Origin: Verrucomicrobium sp. BvORR106
GTDB lineage: Bacteria; Verrucomicrobiota; Verrucomicrobiia; Verrucomicrobiales; Verrucomicrobiaceae
Assembly (NCBI RefSeq): GCF_000739655.1
Contig: NZ_BATR01000093.1
Coordinates: 40,831-104,830, forward strand
DNA: 64,000 bases
Direction: 5' to 3'
Shown here: positions 40,468 to 59,715 of the stretch, in pieces
How positions within the stretch are numbered: the first letter of the stretch is position 1
Layout of the letters: each line of letters opens with the position of its first letter
Notes under the pieces: generated by a model
Database searches by the model: none
What the model was told of the DNA's origin: nothing
The model's input: the letters and a program-made list of their open reading frames with translations, nothing else
Made by a program: the position numbers and the translations under genes

Positions 40468-41544
40468 ATGAAGAATCAGAACGCGCTCAAGGCTGGGCTG
40501 TTTGGCGACCTCCCCGTATCCCACCCAGAACCGGAATCGGAGAGCTGGAAGGAGATTGTGCGCAAGTACCAGGTGCCGTCTTCCTGGCGCGCAACCTGGC
40601 AGGTGGTGAACACGCTGGTGCCCTACCTCGCCCTGTGGGGGCTCATGTACTGGGCGATGTCGGTGTCTTACTGGCTGGTGATCCCGCTCGCCATCCTGGC
40701 GGGCGGATTTGTGGTGCGCACTTTCATCATCTTTCATGACTGCACGCACGGTTCCTTCTATGGATCGCGGCGGGCAAATGACATCCTCGGTTTCATCACC
40801 GGTGTTCTGACCTTCACACCGTACCATCATTGGAAGTGGGAGCACACGGTGCATCACGCCAGCGCGGGGAACCTGGACCGGCGCGGCATGGGGGATGTGT
40901 GGACCCTTACCGTCCAGGAGTACCTAGATGCTTCCCGCTGGAAGCGCTTCTCGTACCGTCTTTCCCGGAACCCGGTGGTCTTGTTTGCTCTGGCTCCCCT
41001 GGGCCTTTTCCTCGTCCTGAACCGGTTTGCGGTGAAAGGGGCCAAGGAGAAGGAGCGGCGTTCGGTTTACATCACCAACGTGATGCTGCTCGTGATCGCA
41101 GGTCTGCTGACCTGGGCCTTTGGTTGGAAAGCGTATCTCGTCATCCAACTCACCATCCTGGTGGTGGCGGGTACAGCTGGCGTGTGGCTATTCTATGTGC
41201 AGCATCAATTTGAGGACGTGTATTGGGAGCGGCATGAGGAGTGGGACTTTGCGCAAGCCGCGTTGCAAGGCAGCTCCTTCTACAAGTTGCCCAAGATCCT
41301 CCAGTGGTTCTCCGGGAACATTGGCTACCACCACATCCATCACCTCAGCCCGCGCATTCCGAACTACCGCCTGGAGCGGGCTCACAAATCGGAACCGCTT
41401 TTTCAAAGCGTGCCACCGCTGACGTTGCGCAAGAGTTTGAAGTCGCTGACTTTCCGGCTGTGGGATGAAGGCAAGCGCAAACTGGTGGGATACAAGGCCG
41501 CCCGGCAGGCACGTGCGGAGAGGGCGAAGAAAGCGGCGGAGTGA
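40468..41544 (+). CDS. Fatty acid desaturase (acyl-lipid, DesA-type)
   Basis: A 358-aa integral membrane di-iron enzyme that introduces a double bond into acyl chains. The three histidine boxes are present and correctly spaced: HDCTH (about residue 91), HHWKWEHTVHH (about 127-137) and HHIHH (about 292). Four to six membrane helices surround them. The pattern fits omega-6/Delta-12-type acyl-lipid desaturases; the exact regioselectivity cannot be read from sequence. Confidence 0.92.
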   Translation: MKNQNALKAGLFGDLPVSHPEPESESWKEIVRKYQVPSSWRATWQVVNTLVPYLALWGLMYWAMSVSYWLVIPLAILAGGFVVRTFIIFHDCTHGSFYGSRRANDILGFITGVLTFTPYHHWKWEHTVHHASAGNLDRRGMGDVWTLTVQEYLDASRWKRFSYRLSRNPVVLFALAPLGLFLVLNRFAVKGAKEKERRSVYITNVMLLVIAGLLTWAFGWKAYLVIQLTILVVAGTAGVWLFYVQHQFEDVYWERHEEWDFAQAALQGSSFYKLPKILQWFSGNIGYHHIHHLSPRIPNYRLERAHKSEPLFQSVPPLTLRKSLKSLTFRLWDEGKRKLVGYKAARQARAERAKKAAE

Positions 41545-52629: not shown

Positions 52630-54723
52630 ATGAACGCTGCTCTACGCGAACGAGATTCCTTGCCTCTGCCAGCCCGGCGGAGGAACGGGTTATCGCGCAG
52701 GACGGCGACCTTGATCTTGGCGGGGGTTGCATGGGGGCTGGCTCTGTTCTCCCTCCCGTGCCACGCCGGTATTTTGGAGTGGTTGAGCCCGGAACTCGCC
52801 CGCATGGAGCGGGAACGCGTGGACCTGGAGCAGCAGCTTCCCGGCCTTCCGACTGCGCCGGCTGTGCACCCATCCGAGCGGATCGGCTGGCACAGCCTTT
52901 ACCTGGGCGCGCCCGAGGCGGAGCAGTGGGTGGATCTCCGGCTGGGCCGGCCACAGGCTGTCGATGCTGTGGTGCTGATTGCTCCCCCACCTGGCGGGGC
53001 GACGACGAAAGCTGGCTACGGCTTTCCCAAGCGCTTCCGTGTGGAGGCGACCTTGGCAGACGATGAGCAAGACGGAGCCGATAACGACGGTCTTGTGGTG
53101 CTGGCGGACTACACGCAGCAAGATTTCCCCAATCCTGGGAATCTGCCGGTATGGATCCCGGTGGGGGGAAGGGTGGTCAAGGAACTCCGCATCACGGCGA
53201 CGCGTCTCTACACCGAGGGCGGGCGCAGCTTTGTCGCACTGGGGGAAGTGATGGTGATGCAGGGGAAGAGAAATCTCGGGCCGGAACTGGAGGCCGTGGG
53301 GCCAGACCGGGTAAAGGCCCGCAGCAGCCAGGGCACGCGGCCCGACTGGGGGAGGATTAATCTGGTGGATGGGCACACGGTGCTGGGGCCACCGCTGGGG
53401 CACCGCGCCAGTCCAGCGTTGGGATTCCGCAGCAAGCCGGCCAGTGAGAGTCTCGGGCTCACGCGACCTTGGGTCATGGTGGACCTGGGTGAGGTGGTGC
53501 CTGTGGATGAGGTGAGGTTGTTTCCTGCGCATCCGCCAGCCTTTGCCCACAGCCCGGGGTATGGTTTCCCGGTGCGTTATCACCTTGAACTCCGGCTGGA
53601 TCAGACGGAACTGCCGGAGTACCTGGCGCCTCCGCAGTCCGGCAGCTACACGGCTCCTCCCGGGGATAACGTGGTGACCCTCGTGGGGGACGGTCGGCGG
53701 GCCCGGTTCGTCCGGTTGAATGTGGATGAGCCTCACGTCAGCAATGGCAGTGCCGTCTTTGCCCTTGCCGAACTGCAAGTGTGGTCAGGCGGGCAGAATG
53801 TGGCGCTGGGCAGGCCGGTCACTTCCTCCGATTCCACGGAGGCAGAGGGCTGGGAAAAAGGGGCGCTGGTGGATGGCTATGCCAGCGTGGCAGACATTGT
53901 GGACTGGCCCGACTGGCTGGAAGGCCTTTCGAAGCGTCGGGAACTGGAGCAGCAACTGGCGGCACTGGCCGTGCTGCGCGGTAGCATCGTCCAGCGCTGG
54001 CAGCGGGCGGGCTTGCTGATCCTGGGTGGATTGGCTGCGGCGGCGGTGATGGCCATGGTGGGTTGGAATTTGCGACAACGGCAGCTGCGGCGGTCGGAAA
54101 TGGAGGCCCTGAGGGAAAGAATTTCCCAGGACCTTCATGACGAGATCGGCAGCAGCCTCGGCAGCATTGCCCTGATCAGCCAGGACGCTCTGGCCATGGC
54201 ACCGGATGATGACCTCAGGCGGGAGTTGCAGGAAATACGGGATACTGCCCAGCAGACGCTGGACTCCATGCGGGACATTGTGCGGCTGGCCCAGAGCGGG
54301 GTCTATGGGCAGGGAGACCTGACCGCGCATCTGCGGGAGATCGCCGACCGCATGCTGCGTGGCATCCCGCACGAGTGGACCTCCGACCCAACGGTGGACC
54401 GGGCATTCAACGCGTTGCCGATGAACCAGCGGCGGGATCTGGTGCTGATGTTCAAGGAGACCCTGCACAACATCATGCGTCACGCCCGGGCGACGAGAGT
54501 CCAGATTCACCTGACCCGCGAGAGCGCCATGGTCGAGGTCTCGGTTCAGGACAACGGGTGCGGGTTCGCCTTCACGGCTCAAAAGCCGGGATCATCGGCC
54601 AATGGCAGCGGCATGGGCCTGTCCAATCTACAACGCCGCGCTGCCAAGCACGGCGGGCGTACCCTCATCGATTCCACTCCCGGACAGGGCACCCACATCC
54701 GCCTTCGTCTCCCACTTTCCTAG
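52630..54723 (+). CDS. NarL-type sensor histidine kinase with discoidin-like sensor region
   Basis: A 697-aa kinase. Signal or first membrane helix about 25-45, then a 400-residue extracytoplasmic region with two halves resembling F5/8-type-C or discoidin modules: about 80-210 with EQWVDLRLGRPQAVDAVVLIAP, YGFPKRFRVEATL, VKELRITATRLY, FVALGEVMVMQGKRNL; and about 270-405 with PWVMVDLGEVVPVDEVRLFPAH, YGFPVRYHLELRL, ARFVRLNVDEPH, FALAELQVWSGGQNVALG. A second helix is at about 457-477. HisKA_3 with H503 (SQDLHDEIGSSLGSIAL) and the HATPase domain (NIMRHARATRVQIHL, DNGCGFAF, GSGMGLSNLQRRAAKHGG) follow. It may sense a carbohydrate. It is 6 bp from the regulator gene and divergent from the DUF1552/1592 units. 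Confidence 0.9.
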   Translation: MNAALRERDSLPLPARRRNGLSRRTATLILAGVAWGLALFSLPCHAGILEWLSPELARMERERVDLEQQLPGLPTAPAVHPSERIGWHSLYLGAPEAEQWVDLRLGRPQAVDAVVLIAPPPGGATTKAGYGFPKRFRVEATLADDEQDGADNDGLVVLADYTQQDFPNPGNLPVWIPVGGRVVKELRITATRLYTEGGRSFVALGEVMVMQGKRNLGPELEAVGPDRVKARSSQGTRPDWGRINLVDGHTVLGPPLGHRASPALGFRSKPASESLGLTRPWVMVDLGEVVPVDEVRLFPAHPPAFAHSPGYGFPVRYHLELRLDQTELPEYLAPPQSGSYTAPPGDNVVTLVGDGRRARFVRLNVDEPHVSNGSAVFALAELQVWSGGQNVALGRPVTSSDSTEAEGWEKGALVDGYASVADIVDWPDWLEGLSKRRELEQQLAALAVLRGSIVQRWQRAGLLILGGLAAAAVMAMVGWNLRQRQLRRSEMEALRERISQDLHDEIGSSLGSIALISQDALAMAPDDDLRRELQEIRDTAQQTLDSMRDIVRLAQSGVYGQGDLTAHLREIADRMLRGIPHEWTSDPTVDRAFNALPMNQRRDLVLMFKETLHNIMRHARATRVQIHLTRESAMVEVSVQDNGCGFAFTAQKPGSSANGSGMGLSNLQRRAAKHGGRTLIDSTPGQGTHIRLRLPLS

Positions 54724-54729
54724 ACCCTC

Positions 54730-55467
54730 ATGGCTGACGCATCTGCCCCTTCTCACTCCCCTGTGCCAGTCCCCGTGCCTGTCTGGTTGGTGGAGGATCA
54801 CAAAACCTATGGCGAGCGGCTCATGCGAGCCCTCAACCGGCTGGACGGCATCACTTGTGGTCAGCGATTCACCGCGGTGGAGGATGCGGTGGCCAGATTG
54901 CAAGCCGTGGGTGACGAGCTCCCGTCCGTGCTTTTGCTGGATGTGGAGCTCCCGGGTATGAGCGGCATTGAGGGAATCGCAGCGCTGAAGTCGCATGCCC
55001 CGAACTTGGCCATCGTGATCCTCACCGTGTTTGAAGATGACGACAAGATCTTCCGGGCCATTTGCGCGGGGGCCGCAGGCTACCTGCTGAAGACCGCTGG
55101 AGTCGATGACATCGCTGCAGCCATCCGCACTGCTGCCGCGGGCGGCTCACCGATCAATCCCGCCATCGCCCGGCGGGTCCTGGAGATGTTCTCCAAAGTA
55201 AATGCGGGACGGGCAGGGGATCAAGGAAACAGCAGTCCTGCTCGAGAGGCCGCGGGCAAGGGTGGCCAGGCCACGTACGGCCTGACCCCCCGGGAACTGC
55301 AAATTCTGGAGCTGCTGGTGCAAGGTCACACCATCAAGCAGGCAGCGGGGGAGATGGGCATCGGCTACTACACAGCGGATGAGTACATCCGCAGCGTGTA
55401 CGAGAAGCTACAAGTACGCAGTCGTGGTGGAGCGATCGCCAAGGCGGTGAAAGAGCGGCTGGTGTAG
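54730..55467 (+). CDS. NarL/FixJ-type response regulator
   Basis: A 245-aa partner of the upstream kinase. Receiver domain about 15-135 with D71 (LLLDVELPGMSGIEGI) and the switch lysine in GYLLKTAGVDDIAAAI. A Ser/Ala/Gly-rich linker of about 40 residues leads to a LuxR-type HTH (LTPRELQILELLVQGHTIKQAAGEMGIGYYTADEYIRSVYEKLQVRSRGGAIAKA). The HTH has YTADEYIRSVYEKL where the family usually has TVK-HI-NIY-KL. Confidence 0.93.
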   Translation: MADASAPSHSPVPVPVPVWLVEDHKTYGERLMRALNRLDGITCGQRFTAVEDAVARLQAVGDELPSVLLLDVELPGMSGIEGIAALKSHAPNLAIVILTVFEDDDKIFRAICAGAAGYLLKTAGVDDIAAAIRTAAAGGSPINPAIARRVLEMFSKVNAGRAGDQGNSSPAREAAGKGGQATYGLTPRELQILELLVQGHTIKQAAGEMGIGYYTADEYIRSVYEKLQVRSRGGAIAKAVKERLV

Positions 55468-56931: not shown

Positions 56932-57004
56932 TGCTCGCGACAGGAGTCGCACCTGTACTGGCGGCGCTCTCAACGCCGTGCCTCTGCTGTTGGGCTACGC
57001 GAGC
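56932..57004 (-). tRNA. tRNA-Leu(GAG)-like, class I body, G55
   Basis: 7-bp acceptor GCTCGCG/CGCGAGC, discriminator A, CCA not encoded (CCC follows). Anticodon loop TTGAGAG on CGGCG/CGCCG. D-loop AACAGCAGA, T-loop TGCGACT (G at 55). The variable region is 5 nt, although bacterial Leu tRNAs normally have a long arm. Confidence 0.75.
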
Positions 57005-57019
57005 GGGGAATGGGAAAGT

Positions 57020-57095
57020 TGGCAACCCCAGCCGGATTCGCACCGGCATTCTTCGATAGAAAGTCGAAGGTCTTGGCTGATTAGACGATGGGGTC
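57020..57095 (-). tRNA. tRNA-Glu(TTC)-like, G55
   Basis: Acceptor GACCCCA/TGGGGTT, discriminator G, CCA encoded. D-stem GTCT/AGAC with loop AATCAGCCA. Anticodon loop CTTTCTA. T-arm GCCGG-TGCGAAT-CCGGC. The body resembles ordinary tRNA-Glu (CATCGTCTA) apart from the D- and T-loop changes. Confidence 0.85.
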
Positions 57096-57138
57096 GAGTG
57101 AGGGGGAAAGGGAAGGGGGATAAACCTGGCTCTAGAAA

Positions 57139-57233
57139 TGGCGGAACGCGGAGGACATGCTCCCCATCGCACCGTGAAGGTACGACGATCTCGTTAGCAC
57201 CGAGTCCCAGCGCGCTTGTCTGGTTCACGTTCC
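57139..57233 (-). tRNA. tRNA-Ser(GCT)-like, 8+4 form
   Basis: 8-bp acceptor GGAACGTG/CGCGTTCC, discriminator G, CCA encoded. D-arm CCAG-ACAAGCGCG-CTGG. Anticodon loop GTGCTAA. Long variable arm. T-arm of only 4 bp, GGGG-AGCATGT-CCTC. Confidence 0.78.
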
Positions 57234-57344
57234 GTGGAGAGAAGTCAGGGTTAAGACTGAGTATGAAGGGGGACGTAGCACCAAGAAAGGTGGGAAGCCC
57301 GAGATGGGTGTTTCTTGGCGATTGAGGTCCGACATCTGGCGACG

Positions 57345-57525
57345 AAGTCGCTGTGGAGTGCGGCGAGAATCGCCGCTCTAGCCCTTGCTTGTGACGTAGT
57401 AAAAGGTATGCGCGGCCTTGGACGGAGGAATGGCCTGCTTGAGGCAGGCCTCCGATACCGGTCTTTGGTTCGAGGCTATCACAAGGACTCCCGAAAGCGG
57501 CGGTTCCCGCGCGCACTCCAAAAGC
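57345..57525. repeat. MITE-like inverted repeat pair inside the tRNA array gap
   Basis: The left end (about 57350-57383, read in reverse complement AGAGCGGCGATTCTCGCCGC then ACTCCAC) matches the right end (about 57493-57523, AAAGCGGCGGTTCCCGCGCG then CACTCCAA) imperfectly. It is related to the element at 5343-5555. A perfect hairpin GGAGGAATGGCCTGCTTGAGG / GGCCTCC-like pair lies between. The gap 57234-57615 holds no tRNA or protein gene. Confidence 0.5.
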
Positions 57526-57615
57526 GCTTCGCGCTCAGGTGGCGGAGTTGAAGAGTAGTTTGAGGGTGTGTCGGCCTTGCTGGATCACGAGAAGTTCGAA
57601 CATAGGGCAATGAGA

Positions 57616-57691
57616 TGGTCCCGATGGCAGGAGTTGCACCTGCACTGACTCCGGTTTGAGCGGAGCGCCTCTGCTGTTGGGCTACACCGGG
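57616..57691 (-). tRNA. tRNA-Leu(CAA)-like, class I body, G55
   Basis: Acceptor CCCGGTG/CATCGGG, discriminator A, CCA encoded. D-loop AACAGCAGA, anticodon loop CTCAAAC on CTCCG/CGGAG, variable region TCAGT, T-arm GCAGG-TGCAACT-CCTGC. First pair C1-G72. Confidence 0.82.
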
Positions 57692-57701
57692 GGAGAGAAA
57701 A

Positions 57702-57780
57702 TGGTGCTCGTGGCAGGACTTGCACCCGCATGGGTCTATTACGGTTTCAAGGAGTTAGAAGCTCCAGCCGATACACGAGC
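57702..57780 (-). tRNA. tRNA-Arg(TCT)-like without D-arm
   Basis: Acceptor GCTCGTG/CACGAGC, discriminator A, CCA encoded. Only TATCGGC separates the acceptor from the anticodon stem (TGGAG-CTTCTAA-CTCCT). A 20-nt variable region follows, in which CCGTA can pair with TA(T)CGG. T-arm GCGGG-TGCAAGT-CCTGC. Confidence 0.75.
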
Positions 57781-57796
57781 ATGGTTGAGAGGAAAT

Positions 57797-57872
57797 TGGT
57801 CCCGGCGGCAGGAATCGCACCCGCACTGGCTCCGTTCTAAGCGGAGTGCCTCTGCTGTTGGGCTACGCCGGG
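57797..57872 (-). tRNA. tRNA-Leu(TAG)-like, class I body, G55
   Basis: Acceptor CCCGGCG/CGCCGGG, discriminator A, CCA encoded. Anticodon loop CTTAGAA on CTCCG/CGGAG. D-loop AACAGCAGA; variable region CCAGT; T-arm GCGGG-TGCGATT-CCTGC. Nearly the same body as the Leu(CAA) gene. Confidence 0.82.
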
Positions 57873-57876
57873 AAAA

Positions 57877-57955
57877 TGGTGCTCGCGGCAGGATTTGCAC
57901 CCGCATGAGTCTGTTACGGTTTCAATGGGTTCGAAGCCCAAGCCGATACGCGAGC
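57877..57955 (-). tRNA. tRNA-Arg(TCG)-like without D-arm
   Basis: Acceptor GCTCGCG/CGCGAGC, discriminator A, CCA encoded. Same unusual layout as the Arg(TCT) gene: TATCGGC linker, anticodon stem-loop TTGGG-CTTCGAA-CCCAT, 20-nt variable region (TTGAAACCGTAACAGACTCA), T-arm GCGGG-TGCAAAT-CCTGC. Confidence 0.75.
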
Positions 57956-58007
57956 ATGAACAATAAAGTGGACCTGTGAGTTGCTTGCTGCCCCGCAATT
58001 CACCAAG

Positions 58008-58081
58008 CGGCTCCGGATGGATTTGCACCATCAACCACCCGGTCCAAAGCCGGGTGCTCTGTCTGATTGAGCTACGGAGCT
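58008..58081 (-). tRNA. tRNA-Gln(TTG)-like, G55
   Basis: Acceptor AGCTCCG/CGGAGCC with A1/C72 unpaired, discriminator G (as expected for Gln), CCA not encoded. D-stem GCTC/GAGC with loop AATCAGACA. Anticodon loop CTTTGGA. T-arm GATGG-TGCAAAT-CCATC. Confidence 0.82.
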
Positions 58082-58118
58082 CCTCGTGGTGATTCAAAAA
58101 CATGGCGGCAAGGGGGAT

Positions 58119-58192
58119 TGGTCGGGCGCGTCCGAGTTGCACGGCTCAACTCCACACCGAATGGAGCATGCTGCTGTCACATCCCGCGCCCG
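58119..58192 (-). tRNA. tRNA-Pro(CGG)-like with short T-stem
   Basis: 8-bp acceptor CGGGCGCG/CGCGCCCG, discriminator A, CCA encoded, C1-G72 as in Pro tRNAs. Anticodon loop TTCGGTG on CTCCA/TGGAG. D region contains CAGC. T-stem only CCG/CGG plus a G/A mismatch around loop TGCAACT. Confidence 0.72.
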
Positions 58193-58212
58193 GGATCTTT
58201 GAGGACTGAAAA

Positions 58213-58289
58213 TGGTCACGCAGGCAGGACTTGCACCTGCTTCCACTTGTCTCCCGGACAAGTGCCTCGTCTGCTTTGGCCTCTGCGTG
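58213..58289 (-). tRNA. tRNA-Pro(GGG)-like with C33
   Basis: Acceptor CACGCAG/CTGCGTG, discriminator A, CCA encoded. D-arm GCC-AAAGCAGACGA-GGC. Anticodon stem CTTGT/ACAAG with loop CCGGGAG, so position 33 is C in place of the invariant U. T-arm GCAGG-TGCAAGT-CCTGC. Confidence 0.78.
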
Positions 58290-58320
58290 AACTGAGGTTC
58301 ATGAAACACTGAAGGAAAGT

Positions 58321-58396
58321 TGGACGCACGCCCCGGACTTTCACCGGGTAATCCGGTTTTGCAGACCGGTGGCGCGAGGGCTTTGCCTTGCGTGCG
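58321..58396 (-). tRNA. tRNA-Cys(GCA)-like, G55 A56
   Basis: Acceptor CGCACGC/GCGTGCG, discriminator T (the Cys identity base), CCA encoded. D-arm GGC-AAAGCCCTCGC-GCC. Anticodon loop CTGCAAA on CCGGT/ACCGG. T-arm CCCGG-TGAAAGT-CCGGG, the only member with A at position 56. Confidence 0.83.
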
Positions 58397-58411
58397 ATTG
58401 GCGGGAGAAAT

Positions 58412-58487
58412 TGGGGTGATCAACGGGACTTGCACCCGCACGTCAGCCTTCACAGGGCTGGATGCTAACTTTTACATCATGATCACC
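58412..58487 (-). tRNA. tRNA-His(GTG)-like, G55
   Basis: 8-bp acceptor GGTGATCA/TGATCACC that includes the extra G(-1)-C73 pair diagnostic of His, CCA encoded. D-arm ATG-TAAAAGTTAG-CAT. Anticodon loop CTGTGAA on CAGCC/GGCTG. T-arm GCGGG-TGCAAGT-CCCGT. Confidence 0.85.
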
Positions 58488-58510
58488 ATTTGGGTTTGAG
58501 CCGGAGATGT

Positions 58511-58605
58511 TGGCGGAAGCCGGAGGGCATGCTCCCCATTCCACCGCTAGAGTGGAACGATCCGTCTTCGAGGCGGTCCCGGCGCGCTGGTCCGGTTCAG
58601 CTTCC
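58511..58605 (-). tRNA. tRNA-Ser(CGA)-like, 8+4 form
   Basis: 8-bp acceptor GGAAGCTG/CGGCTTCC, discriminator G, CCA encoded. D-arm CCGG-ACCAGCGCG-CCGG. Anticodon loop CTCGAAG with mismatches at both stem ends. Long variable arm (TTCCAC/GTGGAA). T-arm GGGG-AGCATGC-CCTC. Confidence 0.78.
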
Positions 58606-58629
58606 ATTTAAAAGGGGGTGGATAAAAAG

Positions 58630-58719
58630 CGGAAGTCAGTGGACATGCTCCACAGCCCAGGAAATCCAGGCCCGGCCGGTTTCCAGCCGGCGGCGGCTCG
58701 CTTGTCCGCTTTGACTTCC
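58630..58719 (-). tRNA. tRNA-Ser(GGA)-like, 8+4 form
   Basis: 8-bp acceptor GGAAGTCA/TGACTTCC, discriminator G, CCA not encoded. D-arm GCGG-ACAAGCGAG-CCGC. Anticodon loop CTGGAAA on GCCGG/CCGGC. Long variable arm. T-arm GTGG-AGCATGT-CCAC. Confidence 0.82.
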
Positions 58720-58740
58720 AAAATTGTTGAGGTTGGGAAA

Positions 58741-58814
58741 TGGTGCGCCATGCCGGATCTGCCCCGGCGCCCGCGGTTTGGAAGACCGACATGCTTCTGT
58801 TACACCAATGACGC
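58741..58814 (-). tRNA. tRNA-Gly(TCC)-like, G55
   Basis: Acceptor GCGTCAT/ATGGCGC, discriminator A (bacterial Gly tRNAs normally have U73), CCA encoded. D region TGT-AACAGAA-GCA. Anticodon loop CTTCCAA. T-arm GCCGG-GGCAGAT-CCGGC, with both 54 and 55 changed to G. Confidence 0.72.
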
Positions 58815-58828
58815 GTAAATGAATGAAG

Positions 58829-58903
58829 TGGTGGCTGTGTCCGGTATCGCGCCGGACTCTCTTCGTCTTCAGCGAAGCGCTAATCTGTCTCAGCTACACA
58901 GCC
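58829..58903 (-). tRNA. tRNA-Phe(GAA)-like, G55
   Basis: Acceptor GGCTGTG/CACAGCC, discriminator A, CCA encoded. D-arm GCT-GAGACAGATT-AGC. Anticodon loop CTGAAGA on CTTCG/CGAAG. T-arm TCCGG-CGCGATA-CCGGA. Confidence 0.82.
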
Positions 58904-58912
58904 TTTGAAAAA

Positions 58913-58988
58913 TGGTCCTTCCGGCAGGGTTCGCACCTGCGACCTGCGGCTTATCGGGCCGCTGCTCTACTGACTGAGCTACGAAAGG
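58913..58988 (-). tRNA. tRNA-Ile(GAT)-like with C33, G55
   Basis: Acceptor CCTTTCG/CGGAAGG, discriminator A, CCA encoded. D-stem GCTC/GAGC with loop AGTCAGTA, identical to the common AGTTGGTA except at 17-18, which makes this the clearest alignment of A18-G19. Anticodon loop CCGATAA (C33) on GCGGC/GCCGC. T-arm GCAGG-TGCGAAC-CCTGC. Confidence 0.83.
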
Positions 58989-59021
58989 TGGTGAAAATAA
59001 ATGAGGTTGGATGAAATAGAG

Positions 59022-59109
59022 CGGAACACCAGGGACTCGCACCCTGAACGCCTGGAATGCAGGCGCGGCTGGGTTCAAAGCAGCGTCCTCGTCTGGCCGG
59101 TCGTGTTCC
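59022..59109 (-). tRNA. tRNA-Ser(TGA)-like, 7+5 form
   Basis: Acceptor GGAACAC/GTGTTCC, discriminator G, CCA not encoded. Anticodon loop TTTGAAC with a C/C mismatch at the top of the stem. Long variable arm CGCCTG/CAGGCG. T-arm CAGGG-TGCGAGT-CCCTG. Unlike the other three Ser tRNAs it keeps the 7+5 layout. Confidence 0.75.
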
Positions 59110-59123
59110 CTGCTGATGGGGAT

Positions 59124-59199
59124 TGGTCGCGCACCCCGGTGCTGCCCCGGGCGACGCCTTGTCCCAAACGAGTCGGGTTCGCTGGCTCCCTCATGCGCG
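59124..59199 (-). tRNA. tRNA-Pro(TGG)-like, G55
   Basis: Acceptor CGCGCAT/GTGCGCG with C1-G72, discriminator A, CCA encoded. D-arm GGG-AGCCAGCGAA-CCC. Anticodon loop TTTGGGA as in normal tRNA-Pro, with one C/A mismatch in the stem. T-arm CCCGG-GGCAGCA-CCGGG. Confidence 0.77.
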
Positions 59200-59214
59200 A
59201 TGACTTGAAAAAAT

Positions 59215-59291
59215 TGGCGGCCTGTGCGGGCTTTGCTCCCGCGACCTTCCGCTCGACAGGCGGGTGCTCTTCGTGGCTGAGCTAACAGGCC
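59215..59291 (-). tRNA. tRNA-Asp(GTC)-like, G55
   Basis: Acceptor GGCCTGT/ACAGGCC, discriminator G (expected for Asp), CCA encoded. D-stem GCTC/GAGC with loop AGCCACGAA (AC instead of AG at 18-19). Anticodon loop CTGTCGA. T-arm GCGGG-AGCAAAG-CCCGC. Confidence 0.82.
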
Positions 59292-59311
59292 GTTGTGGTG
59301 GATGAAAAAAG

Positions 59312-59396
59312 TGCCGCGTCCAGGTAATGCTCCTGGTCGATCCCGAAGGATTTTGGTTTTACGGACCAATTCGTGTCTTTAACGAGCTACCACGGC
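59312..59396 (-). tRNA. tRNA-Tyr(GTA)-like with C33, G55
   Basis: Acceptor GCCGTG/CGCGGC plus a G/A mismatch, discriminator A, CCA not encoded. D-arm TCGT-TAAAGAC-ACGA. Anticodon loop CCGTAAA (C33) on TTGGT/ACCAA. Variable arm ATCC-TTCG-GGAT, as expected for Tyr. T-arm CCAGG-AGCATTA-CCTGG. Confidence 0.77.
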
Positions 59397-59407
59397 ATAG
59401 GGAAAAT

Positions 59408-59479
59408 TGGTTGCGGGACGTGGAGTCGCACCACGATGGGAAAGCTTATGAGACTTTCCAGGTTCTCAACCTTCCCGCG
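59408..59479 (-). tRNA. Initiator-like tRNA-Met(CAT) with miniature D-arm, G55
   Basis: Acceptor CGCGGGA/TCCCGCA with C1/A72 unpaired, the initiator hallmark. Discriminator A, CCA encoded. The D-arm is AGGTT-GAG-AACCT with a 3-nt loop. Anticodon loop CTCATAA on a long stem GGAAAGT/GCTTTCC lacking the three G-C pairs of initiators. T-arm CGTGG-TGCGACT-CCACG. Confidence 0.75.
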
Positions 59480-59547
59480 GTTGAAATGAATGGATCGATG
59501 GCCTGGGCTCGGAACCGCATAAATGGATCAGAGCCAGGAGGGGAAAT

Positions 59548-59624
59548 TGGTAGCGGGGGCAGGAATCGAACCTGCTCAATCTCCGGTTTATGAGACCGGT
59601 GCCTTCCCATTTGGCGACCCCGCC
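59548..59624 (-). tRNA. tRNA-Met(CAT), canonical elbow
   Basis: Acceptor GGCGGGG/CCCCGCT, discriminator A, CCA encoded. D-arm GCC-AAATGGGAA-GGC with G18-G19 present. Anticodon loop CTCATAA on CCGGT/ACCGG. T-arm GCAGG-TTCGATT-CCTGC. The only member of the array with normal D- and T-loops; an elongator Met or, if modified at C34, an Ile(AUA) tRNA. Confidence 0.95.
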
Positions 59625-59642
59625 GTTGTGATGATTGTCGAA

Positions 59643-59715
59643 TGGCACGGCGCCCCGGTGCTGCCCCGGGCGGGCTGAGTTTTGGAGGCTCTGCTGCGCG
59701 GCTGGCGCACGCCGT
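59643..59715 (-). tRNA. tRNA-Trp(CCA)-like, G55
   Basis: Acceptor ACGGCGT/GCGCCGT with A1-U72 and discriminator G, both Trp identity features; CCA encoded. D-arm GCGC-CAGCC-GCGC. Anticodon loop CTCCAAA as in normal Trp tRNA, on a weak stem. T-arm CCCGG-GGCAGCA-CCGGG. First tRNA of the array in the direction of transcription. Confidence 0.75.

Follow-up and report, generated by a model that had tools for sequence, protein, structure and literature searches.

A redundant tRNA gene array in Verrucomicrobiaceae with coordinated A18/G55 changes in the tRNA elbow

The window analysed here, 64,000 nucleotides of contig NZ_BATR01000093.1 of Verrucomicrobium sp. BvORR106 (positions 40,831 to 104,830 of the forward strand), contains an array of 24 tRNA-like genes on its minus strand, running from position 59,715 down to 56,932, in which the tRNA elbow has been altered in a coordinated manner. 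The G18-Psi55 contact (Psi, pseudouridine) is among the most conserved in all tRNAs, and this inner elbow pair is the site of both Psi55 and Gm18 (2'-O-methylguanosine 18); RNase P and T-box RNAs stack on the outer pair, 19-56. The array is a second, redundant tRNA set beside 46 normal tRNAs, and in arrays of this kind an exchange at position 18 goes with one at 55 and, in an Arg-UCG gene of the family, one at 19 with one at 56. Spare tRNA arrays are a known kind of system; what sets the present ones apart is the coordinated A18/G55 elbow, and no description of A18/G55 tRNA arrays was found in the literature searched, which does not show that the matter is unpublished. In our estimate there is an even chance that the array is a reserve tRNA set with a jointly exchanged A18/G55 elbow, made under stress alongside RtcB/Ro60-type repair and supplying the ribosome after tRNA cleavage.

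The array and the rest of the genome

Of the 24 array genes, 23 have G at position 55, the exception being an elongator-like Met-CAU gene (59,552-59,624) with T55 and a GG D-loop, and 22 of these 23 have C at position 56 (Cys has A56, in the T-loop TGAAAGT); both counts had been given in the original prediction and are confirmed by renewed reading of the sequence and by a geometry script. The same prediction saw AG in place of G18-G19 in 19 of the 23 G55 genes, of which the coordinated change stands and the count is nearer 18 on re-reading by hand; no clear call at 18-19 is available for the two Arg genes (no normal D-arm), the initiator-like Met gene (a D-loop of 3 nucleotides), Asp and Cys. 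Could the whole genome have left the usual elbow, for example by losing TruB? Elsewhere in the genome (8.69 Mb in 209 contigs, the window lying on contig 117) positions 54-56 read TTC in 46/46 tRNAs, GG stands in the D-loop of all 45 distinct ones (one of the 46 own-genome rows in the looser-rule count discussed below is a false candidate), and a TruB gene is present. The change is thus confined to the array, genome-wide TruB loss as its cause is rejected, and the predicted parallel set does stand beside main tRNAs that are free of it.

Standard tRNA finders, of the kind that had been proposed as a check, do find array genes, if only in part: ARAGORN recovers 9 of the 24, and Rfam RF00005 yields 9 at the gathering score over the window as a whole and 12 when the array region or its contig is searched. 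The geometry script asks for a 7-bp acceptor, a 5-bp T stem and a 7-nucleotide loop; its output was likewise 24 stretches, one of them spurious (57,504-57,593), and it missed the real Pro-CGG gene, which has two T-stem mismatches and was read by hand (its coordinates in the coupling count are off by a few bases). Because the finder demands paired stems, the pairing of stems carries no weight as evidence here; the letters of the D-loop and T-loop play no part in its search. The 24 genes stand for 15 amino acids, with one gene each for Trp, Tyr, Asp, Ile, Phe, Gly, His, Cys, Gln and Glu, two each for Met and Arg, three each for Pro and Leu, and four for Ser; CCA is encoded 3' of 19 of the 24 by hand count. 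An assembly artefact is rejected, a similar array being present in a relative (G067) assembled as a single 8.2-Mb contig. The genes, all on the minus strand, are as follows.

59643..59715, minus, tRNA-Trp(CCA): T-loop GGCAGCA; C31.A39 anticodon-stem mismatch (hand reading)
59549..59624, minus, tRNA-Met(CAU), elongator-like: the sole T55 member, T-loop TTCGATT, normal GG D-loop
59408..59479, minus, tRNA-Met(CAU), initiator-like: C1.A72 mismatch, T-loop TGCGACT, 3-nucleotide D-loop GAG
59312..59396, minus, tRNA-Tyr(GUA): long variable arm, T-loop AGCATTA, CCA not encoded
59215..59291, minus, tRNA-Asp(GUC): T-loop AGCAAAG
59124..59199, minus, tRNA-Pro(UGG): isotype from comparison with L070 and L071; two anticodon-stem mismatches (hand reading); T-loop GGCAGCA
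59022..59109, minus, tRNA-Ser(UGA): T-loop TGCGAGT, CCA not encoded
58913..58988, minus, tRNA-Ile(GAU): T-loop TGCGAAC, D-loop AGTCAGTA
58829..58903, minus, tRNA-Phe(GAA): T-loop CGCGATA
58741..58814, minus, tRNA-Gly(UCC): T-loop GGCAGAT
58630..58719, minus, tRNA-Ser(GGA): T-loop AGCATGT, CCA not encoded
58511..58605, minus, tRNA-Ser(CGA): T-loop AGCATGC; anticodon by hand reading
58412..58486, minus, tRNA-His(GUG): C73, T-loop TGCAAGT
58321..58396, minus, tRNA-Cys(GCA): T-loop TGAAAGT (A56)
58213..58289, minus, tRNA-Pro(GGG): C33, T-loop TGCAAGT
58119..58192, minus, tRNA-Pro(CGG): T-loop TGCAACT, two T-stem mismatches; hand reading
58008..58081, minus, tRNA-Gln(UUG): T-loop TGCAAAT, CCA not encoded
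57877..57955, minus, tRNA-Arg(UCG): no normal D-arm; AACAG motif 3' of the anticodon arm
57797..57872, minus, tRNA-Leu(UAG): short variable loop, T-loop TGCGATT
57702..57780, minus, tRNA-Arg(UCU): D-armless layout as in Arg(UCG)
57616..57691, minus, tRNA-Leu(CAA): short variable loop, T-loop TGCAACT
57139..57233, minus, tRNA-Ser(GCU): T-loop AGCATGT; anticodon by hand reading
57020..57095, minus, tRNA-Glu(UUC): T-loop TGCGAAT, D-loop AATCAGCC
56932..57004, minus, tRNA-Leu(GAG): short variable loop, T-loop TGCGACT; CCC 3' instead of CCA

In both Arg genes just 7 nucleotides separate the acceptor from the anticodon arm, and a D-loop-like motif (AACAG/AATAG) lies within 20 nucleotides between the anticodon and T arms, placed as if the D-loop had been relocated; this layout is kept in three Verrucomicrobium genomes and folds weakly. 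Between Leu-CAA and Ser-GCU, window positions 57332-57548 hold a repeat with further copies elsewhere in the genome (contigs 159, 88 and 83); the repeats common to the array and these contigs are tRNA-free by the finder and resemble an interspersed element.

Coupling of positions 18 and 55 in three collections

How general is the joint change at 18 and 55? It was followed through three collections, namely array tRNAs of the family, viral contigs and other genomes, with identical sequences counted once and with loci holding fewer than four G55 tRNAs left out, as were the Staphylococcus loci L162 and L209 from the other-genomes set (our own locus numbers carry the prefix L). The sets overlap slightly: judged by length, L158, L191, L200, L207 and L213 are family-genome contigs that had entered the count before, and in several cases two viral loci come from different stretches of the same contig. 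Among the 712 candidates from family and window arrays, 665 have G at position 55, 44 have T, 2 have A and 1 has C. Under a strict rule for reading the D-loop, AG at 18-19 was found in 0/194 T55 versus 1165/1244 G55 tRNAs when the three collections are summed, as follows.

Family: T55, 39 GG and 0 AG; G55, 21 GG and 420 AG
Viral contigs: T55, 86 GG and 0 AG; G55, 28 GG and 365 AG
Other genomes: T55, 69 GG and 0 AG; G55, 30 GG and 380 AG

The strict rule leaves unclassed 30/224 T55 and 197/1441 G55 tRNAs (in family, viral contigs and other genomes 4, 9 and 17 loops with T55 and 93, 37 and 67 with G55, respectively). Fisher's test gives p <1e-41 in each collection, a value that is only a guide because the sequences are related, and position 57, taken as a negative control, shows no link to the D-loop letters (p 0.27-0.57). 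The link between A18 and G55 that had been proposed from a single array thus holds in more than 1,000 array tRNAs. The outer pair can also move as a pair: among family tRNAs with A56, 12/19 carry a D-loop GT, which sets U19 against A56, mostly in Arg-UCG. The neighbouring 54-58 combination is T-A in 42/43, 88/95 and 85/86 T55 array tRNAs of the three collections, and G55 array tRNAs also have G-G, A-T, C-A, T-T and C-C there.

The two states can be seen side by side and in exchange. Mixed arrays carry both (L137, for instance, has 13 T55/GG and 7 G55/AG tRNAs); across 15 such arrays Ser and Leu lean towards T55 and Pro, Gly, Cys, Ile and Val towards G55, with no clear isotype rule for G55. Glu orthologues switch both letters at once, reading AATCAGCC...TGCGAAT in Verrucomicrobium and AACTGGCC...TTCGAAT in relatives. 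Elongator Met orthologues, mapped onto a 25-row RtcB tree with weak deepest forks, require at least four changes of state; for Glu the number is at least five. As the Glu and Leu-CAG switches come about partly through replacement by a different gene, Met alone serves for a clean count. Decayed pseudogenes would be expected to show independent, uncoordinated substitutions, which is not the pattern of the array; D-loop and T-loop letters shift jointly in three collections and alanine identity is kept, so that plain decay is rejected, as the original prediction had argued.

What, then, if the exchange has no purpose? On a neutral reading, A18-G55 is a substitute tolerated in rarely used tRNAs that flips under relaxed selection, leaving a spare set with a purposeless elbow. 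The repeated changes of state in Met and Glu (the latter with the reservation just given), the coexistence of both states within one array, and the T55 arrays in similar gene company that are described below are all what such flipping would produce. It would also accord with the viral tRNAs, in that viral G55 tRNAs have a mean identity of 0.65 to bacterial array G55 tRNAs, 0.64 to the normal tRNAs of the window genome and 0.63 to array T55 tRNAs (at most 12 compared for each tRNA). Tested by these identities, recent sharing of the tRNAs by phages and bacteria is not supported, and the near equality of the values leaves room for an old A18/G55 state or for many separate origins. On the other hand, a neutral state should turn up in ordinary tRNAs too, where it is seen in 0/46, and of 577 family tRNAs with C56 no fewer than 534 have G55, nothing like an even split. 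On balance, we regard neutral flipping as an improbable account that nevertheless deserves to be taken seriously.

Conservation, identity features and spread

Related genomes were searched for G55 arrays, as the original prediction had proposed, and they hold them. Array DNA matches 60/68 family genomes, the window's own included (some of these being single weak matches, possibly to ordinary tRNAs), and 38/40 family stretches have at least four G55 tRNAs, with up to 31 per stretch. In the fuller arrays of one large genus a common order, judged by eye, is W-Y-M-D-A-N-R-S-I-F-G-R-G-T-H-C-P-M-Q-L-L-L-R-S-E-L-K-V, the Trp gene coming first in many relatives; one relative (L078) has an array for all 20 amino acids and six others for 19, and the window's genus holds a reduced set. 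Similar content and order were found by eye at loci of seven genera, and array content and much of its order are conserved across the family.

Do these genes retain what a tRNA needs? Family G55 tRNAs have G53-C61 in 530/534, U33 in 467/534 and encoded CCA in 455/534 cases. The G3:U70 pair is the signal for alanyl-tRNA synthetase (AlaRS); it is present in 19/22 Ala tRNAs (T55 and G55) of the family, 29/30 of viral contigs and 18/20 of other genomes, and in 4/555, 0/495 and 3/543 non-Ala tRNAs, respectively. Met genes with an unusual D-arm have a 1:72 combination that is not Watson-Crick in 23/24 cases, which is initiator-like, versus 125/688 other array tRNAs; these genes are without the usual GGG/CCC anticodon stem. 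To judge by their letters, the array tRNAs thus keep most anticodon-loop and T-arm signatures plus the AlaRS signal.

Beyond the family, a scan with a pattern of three tandem G55 T-arms matched 38 stretches of viral contigs, 31 of which hold at least four G55 tRNAs. A terminase match occurs in 6/20 viral records (four of them strong) and RtcB in 6/20; the viral stretches examined contain TROVE in 5/31, RtcB in 2/31 and HNH in 7/31, with Pfam support for two TROVE proteins, and ten PHROG scans of viral records gave little else. Some of the smaller viral contigs may be bacterial instead. The genome-wide scan matched at least 116 stretches; of the 80 listed, 38 hold at least four G55 tRNAs, and these 38 among the matches listed comprise 29 from Verrucomicrobiota, 3 from Planctomycetota and 6 that are deltaproteobacterial or myxobacterial. 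BLAST of the array DNA against phages and plasmids gave short matches covering at most 4% of the query (best 20 of 92 phage and 2 of 2 plasmid records). The viral arrays (31 loci, terminase as above) might suggest that the array is the decaying relic of a phage or plasmid tRNA cluster, as might the five absent amino acids and the broken stems in the window. The similar content and order in seven genera, the coordinated elbow changes and the retained identity elements speak against such a relic, and we hold it to be very unlikely.

The scan also recovered Gly-UCC clusters with G55 in Staphylococcus (L162 and L209, from S. petrasii and S. nepalensis), which are probably tRNAs of the known cell-wall type. 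The original prediction had pointed to a staphylococcal tRNA-Gly with an altered elbow, and the resemblance proves partial: G55 is there and the D-loop GG is lost, but the D-loops read CTTT, CTCT or CTTTC, without AG. In S. aureus three tRNA-Gly are altered to escape EF-Tu (PMC9976931, PMC4052509). By analogy, the array could be a pool charged but kept off EF-Tu that feeds an enzyme using aminoacyl-tRNA, and a GNAT acetyltransferase is indeed encoded in or near 7 family arrays. The staphylococcal case, however, concerns one isotype in cell-wall use and has no A18-G19, whereas the window array stands for 15 amino acids and those of relatives for up to 20, and Fem, MprF and cyclodipeptide-synthase domains were not found among the annotated part of the neighbours; a non-ribosomal pool therefore seems quite unlikely to us.

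Gene company and possible function

Beside relatives' arrays lie genes for RtcB, RlaP, TROVE/Ro60, Band-7/SPFH and HNH proteins, with ZnuA upstream, as defined by clustering of open reading frames and Pfam. Of the 38 family stretches with at least four G55 tRNAs, 33 hold RtcB (27), RlaP (16), TROVE (16) or Band-7 (2), and 31 an HNH gene, counts that are descriptive because the probes were derived from family stretches. The genome-wide scan found RtcB, RlaP, TROVE or Band-7 in 19/38 G55 arrays (16/33 without five family-shared contigs) versus 1/42 pattern matches without an array. Across 67 family genomes, with array presence taken as a DNA match at E up to 1e-10, array and RlaP occur together in 35, the array only in 7, RlaP only in 5 and neither in 20 (p=4e-7); within one genus the corresponding numbers are 25, 5, 3 and 14. 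Whole spare tRNA sets are thus linked by neighbourhood to RtcB/Ro60/RlaP repair, relatives' G55 arrays lying within a few kb of RtcB, TROVE, RlaP or Band-7; an RNA-repair survey reportedly mentions a 'novel tRNA-like molecule' with SPFH proteins. About 4 kb downstream of the L078 array lies a gene (L078:16469-18520) for a protein resembling tRNA synthetases, with an HGTP anticodon domain and a class II core.

To our knowledge, no tRNA set is known in the Salmonella rsr-yrlBA-rtcBA operon. Its Y RNAs contain a tRNA-like domain, and one of them, YrlA, has been proposed as a possible competitive inhibitor of the anticodon nuclease (PMC7790460). Together with the RtcB and TROVE neighbours, this proposal brings up decoys, that is, array RNAs acting outside translation as sponges or competitive inhibitors of a tRNA-cleaving nuclease, or as sensors of the repair system. 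A decoy would have no need for G3:U70 identity, for a Met gene of initiator type or for as many as 20 isotypes, and we think it unlikely.

Which known systems come closest? Spare arrays linked to HNH genes have about 20 or more clustered redundant tRNA genes for 19-20 amino acids with a normal G18-U55 elbow; the window array has 24 genes beside 46 others, stands for 15 amino acids (up to 20 in relatives) and departs in the elbow. Seven plasmid or phage stretches were compared, of which five hold arrays and two, from Paracoccus and an uncultured phage, do not. T55 was found in 15/18 and 16/18 candidates of the two Nostoc arrays, 27/28 of Mycolicibacterium, 21/26 of Variovorax and 23/23 of phage Mx1. 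In Anabaena a plasmid carries the trn operon, which comprises 26 spare tRNA genes. TrcR represses this operon along with rtcB and the genes for a slipin and an HNH protein; translation-targeting antibiotics switch it on, and it is reported to favour survival under them (PMC10272220). It offers shared regulation where the present arrays offer neighbourhood. Like the window array, the Anabaena/Nostoc arrays are large and redundant with housekeeping tRNAs; unlike it, they are mostly T55 and plasmid-borne, and the repair genes are co-regulated rather than adjacent. An HNH gene lies beside two Nostoc arrays (L287 and L288), which were retrieved by way of that gene. These two Nostoc plasmid arrays contain three and one G55 members, respectively (Glu, Met, Ile), with D-loops that read AG by the loose rule. 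Mycobacterial array units, found on plasmids and phages, comprise 26-27 tRNA genes that together serve 19-20 amino acids; an HNH gene sits among them, and antidefence is a suspected role (PMC12803027, PMC5966550); the one tested here (L289) differs in its T55 members. Jumbo phages carry tRNA sets provisioned against host tRNA cleavage, some with RtcB and TROVE, and these are discussed as antidefence (PMC7824862). G55 arrays on viral contigs resemble them, unlike the T55 set of Myxococcus phage Mx1 (L292), which lies amid TROVE, HNH, RNA-ligase and peptidyl-tRNA hydrolase genes.

The reserve-set reading, which rests on the Anabaena analogy and the gene neighbourhood, would run as follows. The array is induced when translation is attacked, as gene neighbours and the trn operon would suggest; housekeeping tRNAs are cleaved, and array tRNAs might then keep the ribosome supplied. 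We infer in this that array tRNAs would be expressed, charged and used by the ribosome. The original prediction had them kept apart from normal translation, which the present results do not show: the breadth of isotypes, the kept G3:U70 pair, a Met gene of initiator type and neighbouring genes for RNA repair suggest a backup set for translation instead. If the reserve set is real, tRNA has a second working design.

What would such a set gain from its elbow? Judged from the letters G55 and A18 alone, array tRNAs could not receive Psi55 or Gm18, and the two bases would touch each other. In the least certain step of the scheme, the new elbow would protect the reserve set against a G18-Psi55-reading enzyme or toxin, and, with the outer pair 19-56 kept, its tRNAs might still be processed and used. 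That 19-56 is mostly kept while the inner pair is changed would fit tRNAs that are processed and used yet unseen by a reader of the inner pair; the elbow is a docking site for RNase P and T-box RNAs (PMC4919913). Perhaps, in a bolder version that we consider doubtful, A18-G55 is a second natural elbow marking tRNAs as off-target, an elbow-reading ribonuclease or defence system destroying G18-Psi55 tRNAs, bacteria with RtcB/Ro60 repair keeping an A18-G55 genetic-code set to survive this, and large phages carrying such sets to pass through the same gap; the variety at 54-58 suggests that the exchange may free this otherwise fixed pair. The main rival to elbow evasion is the neutral flipping discussed above. 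Since nature provides a large A18/G55 set, for the most part with C56 retained, both among bacteria and among viral contigs, the purpose of the elbow becomes directly testable, including which enzymes, toxins or modifications depend on it and how a tRNA profits from giving it up.

Several observations weigh against the reserve set and its elbow. T55 arrays with HNH, RNA-ligase or TROVE genes exist (Nostoc, Mycolicibacterium, Variovorax, phage Mx1), and as they keep similar gene company, the A18/G55 elbow is not needed for such systems and marks a variant. Deletion of trn in an Anabaena trcR mutant left resistance to kasugamycin and BMAA (beta-N-methylamino-L-alanine) unchanged (PMC10272220), and the HNH protein of mycobacterial arrays has been interpreted as a homing endonuclease (PMC5966550). 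The window array is without Ala, Asn, Thr, Lys and Val, its Trp, Pro-UGG, Pro-CGG and D-armless Arg genes look poorly paired, and some array genes of this genome are decayed. No promoter-like signal above chance was found at the array, and no HNH gene was seen beside it among ten open reading frames scanned; rtcB, present in 27/38 relatives' stretches, is absent from the window's cluster, the repair genes of this genome lying elsewhere (RlaP and HNH on contig 159, Ro60 vWA and RtcB on contig 174). A repair gene occurs in just 7/31 viral loci stretches examined. The strict three-arm pattern matches 7/387 sampled genomes of the phylum versus 2/387 for the reversed pattern, the former being a lower bound because the pattern misses known family arrays.

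Further reservations concern the tRNAs themselves. U33 is absent from 67/534 family G55 tRNAs (partly finder error), and His C73 is found in just 10/25 family and 12/26 other-genome tRNAs, and in 11/14 viral ones. Leucine identity in E. coli requires G18:U55, G19-C56 and U54:A58 (PMC9976931), so that Leu members of the array may charge poorly. The U19-A56 exchange is a family matter, mostly of one gene (2/14 in other genomes, 0/3 in viral contigs), and a looser D-loop rule, which counts doubtful loops such as AATGCAG of Leu-CAG as AG, classes one T55 tRNA per collection as AG.

Two features adjoin the window's array and are the same in the three Verrucomicrobium genomes compared, an MlrC protein gene and the following pair.

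52630..55467, plus, histidine kinase and LuxR-type response regulator

This pair could be a regulator of the array or merely reflect synteny; the kinase has a sub-threshold F5/8-type C match. Elsewhere in the window genome, a very long PATR-repeat protein (L270 12750-18131) is encoded next to RlaP.

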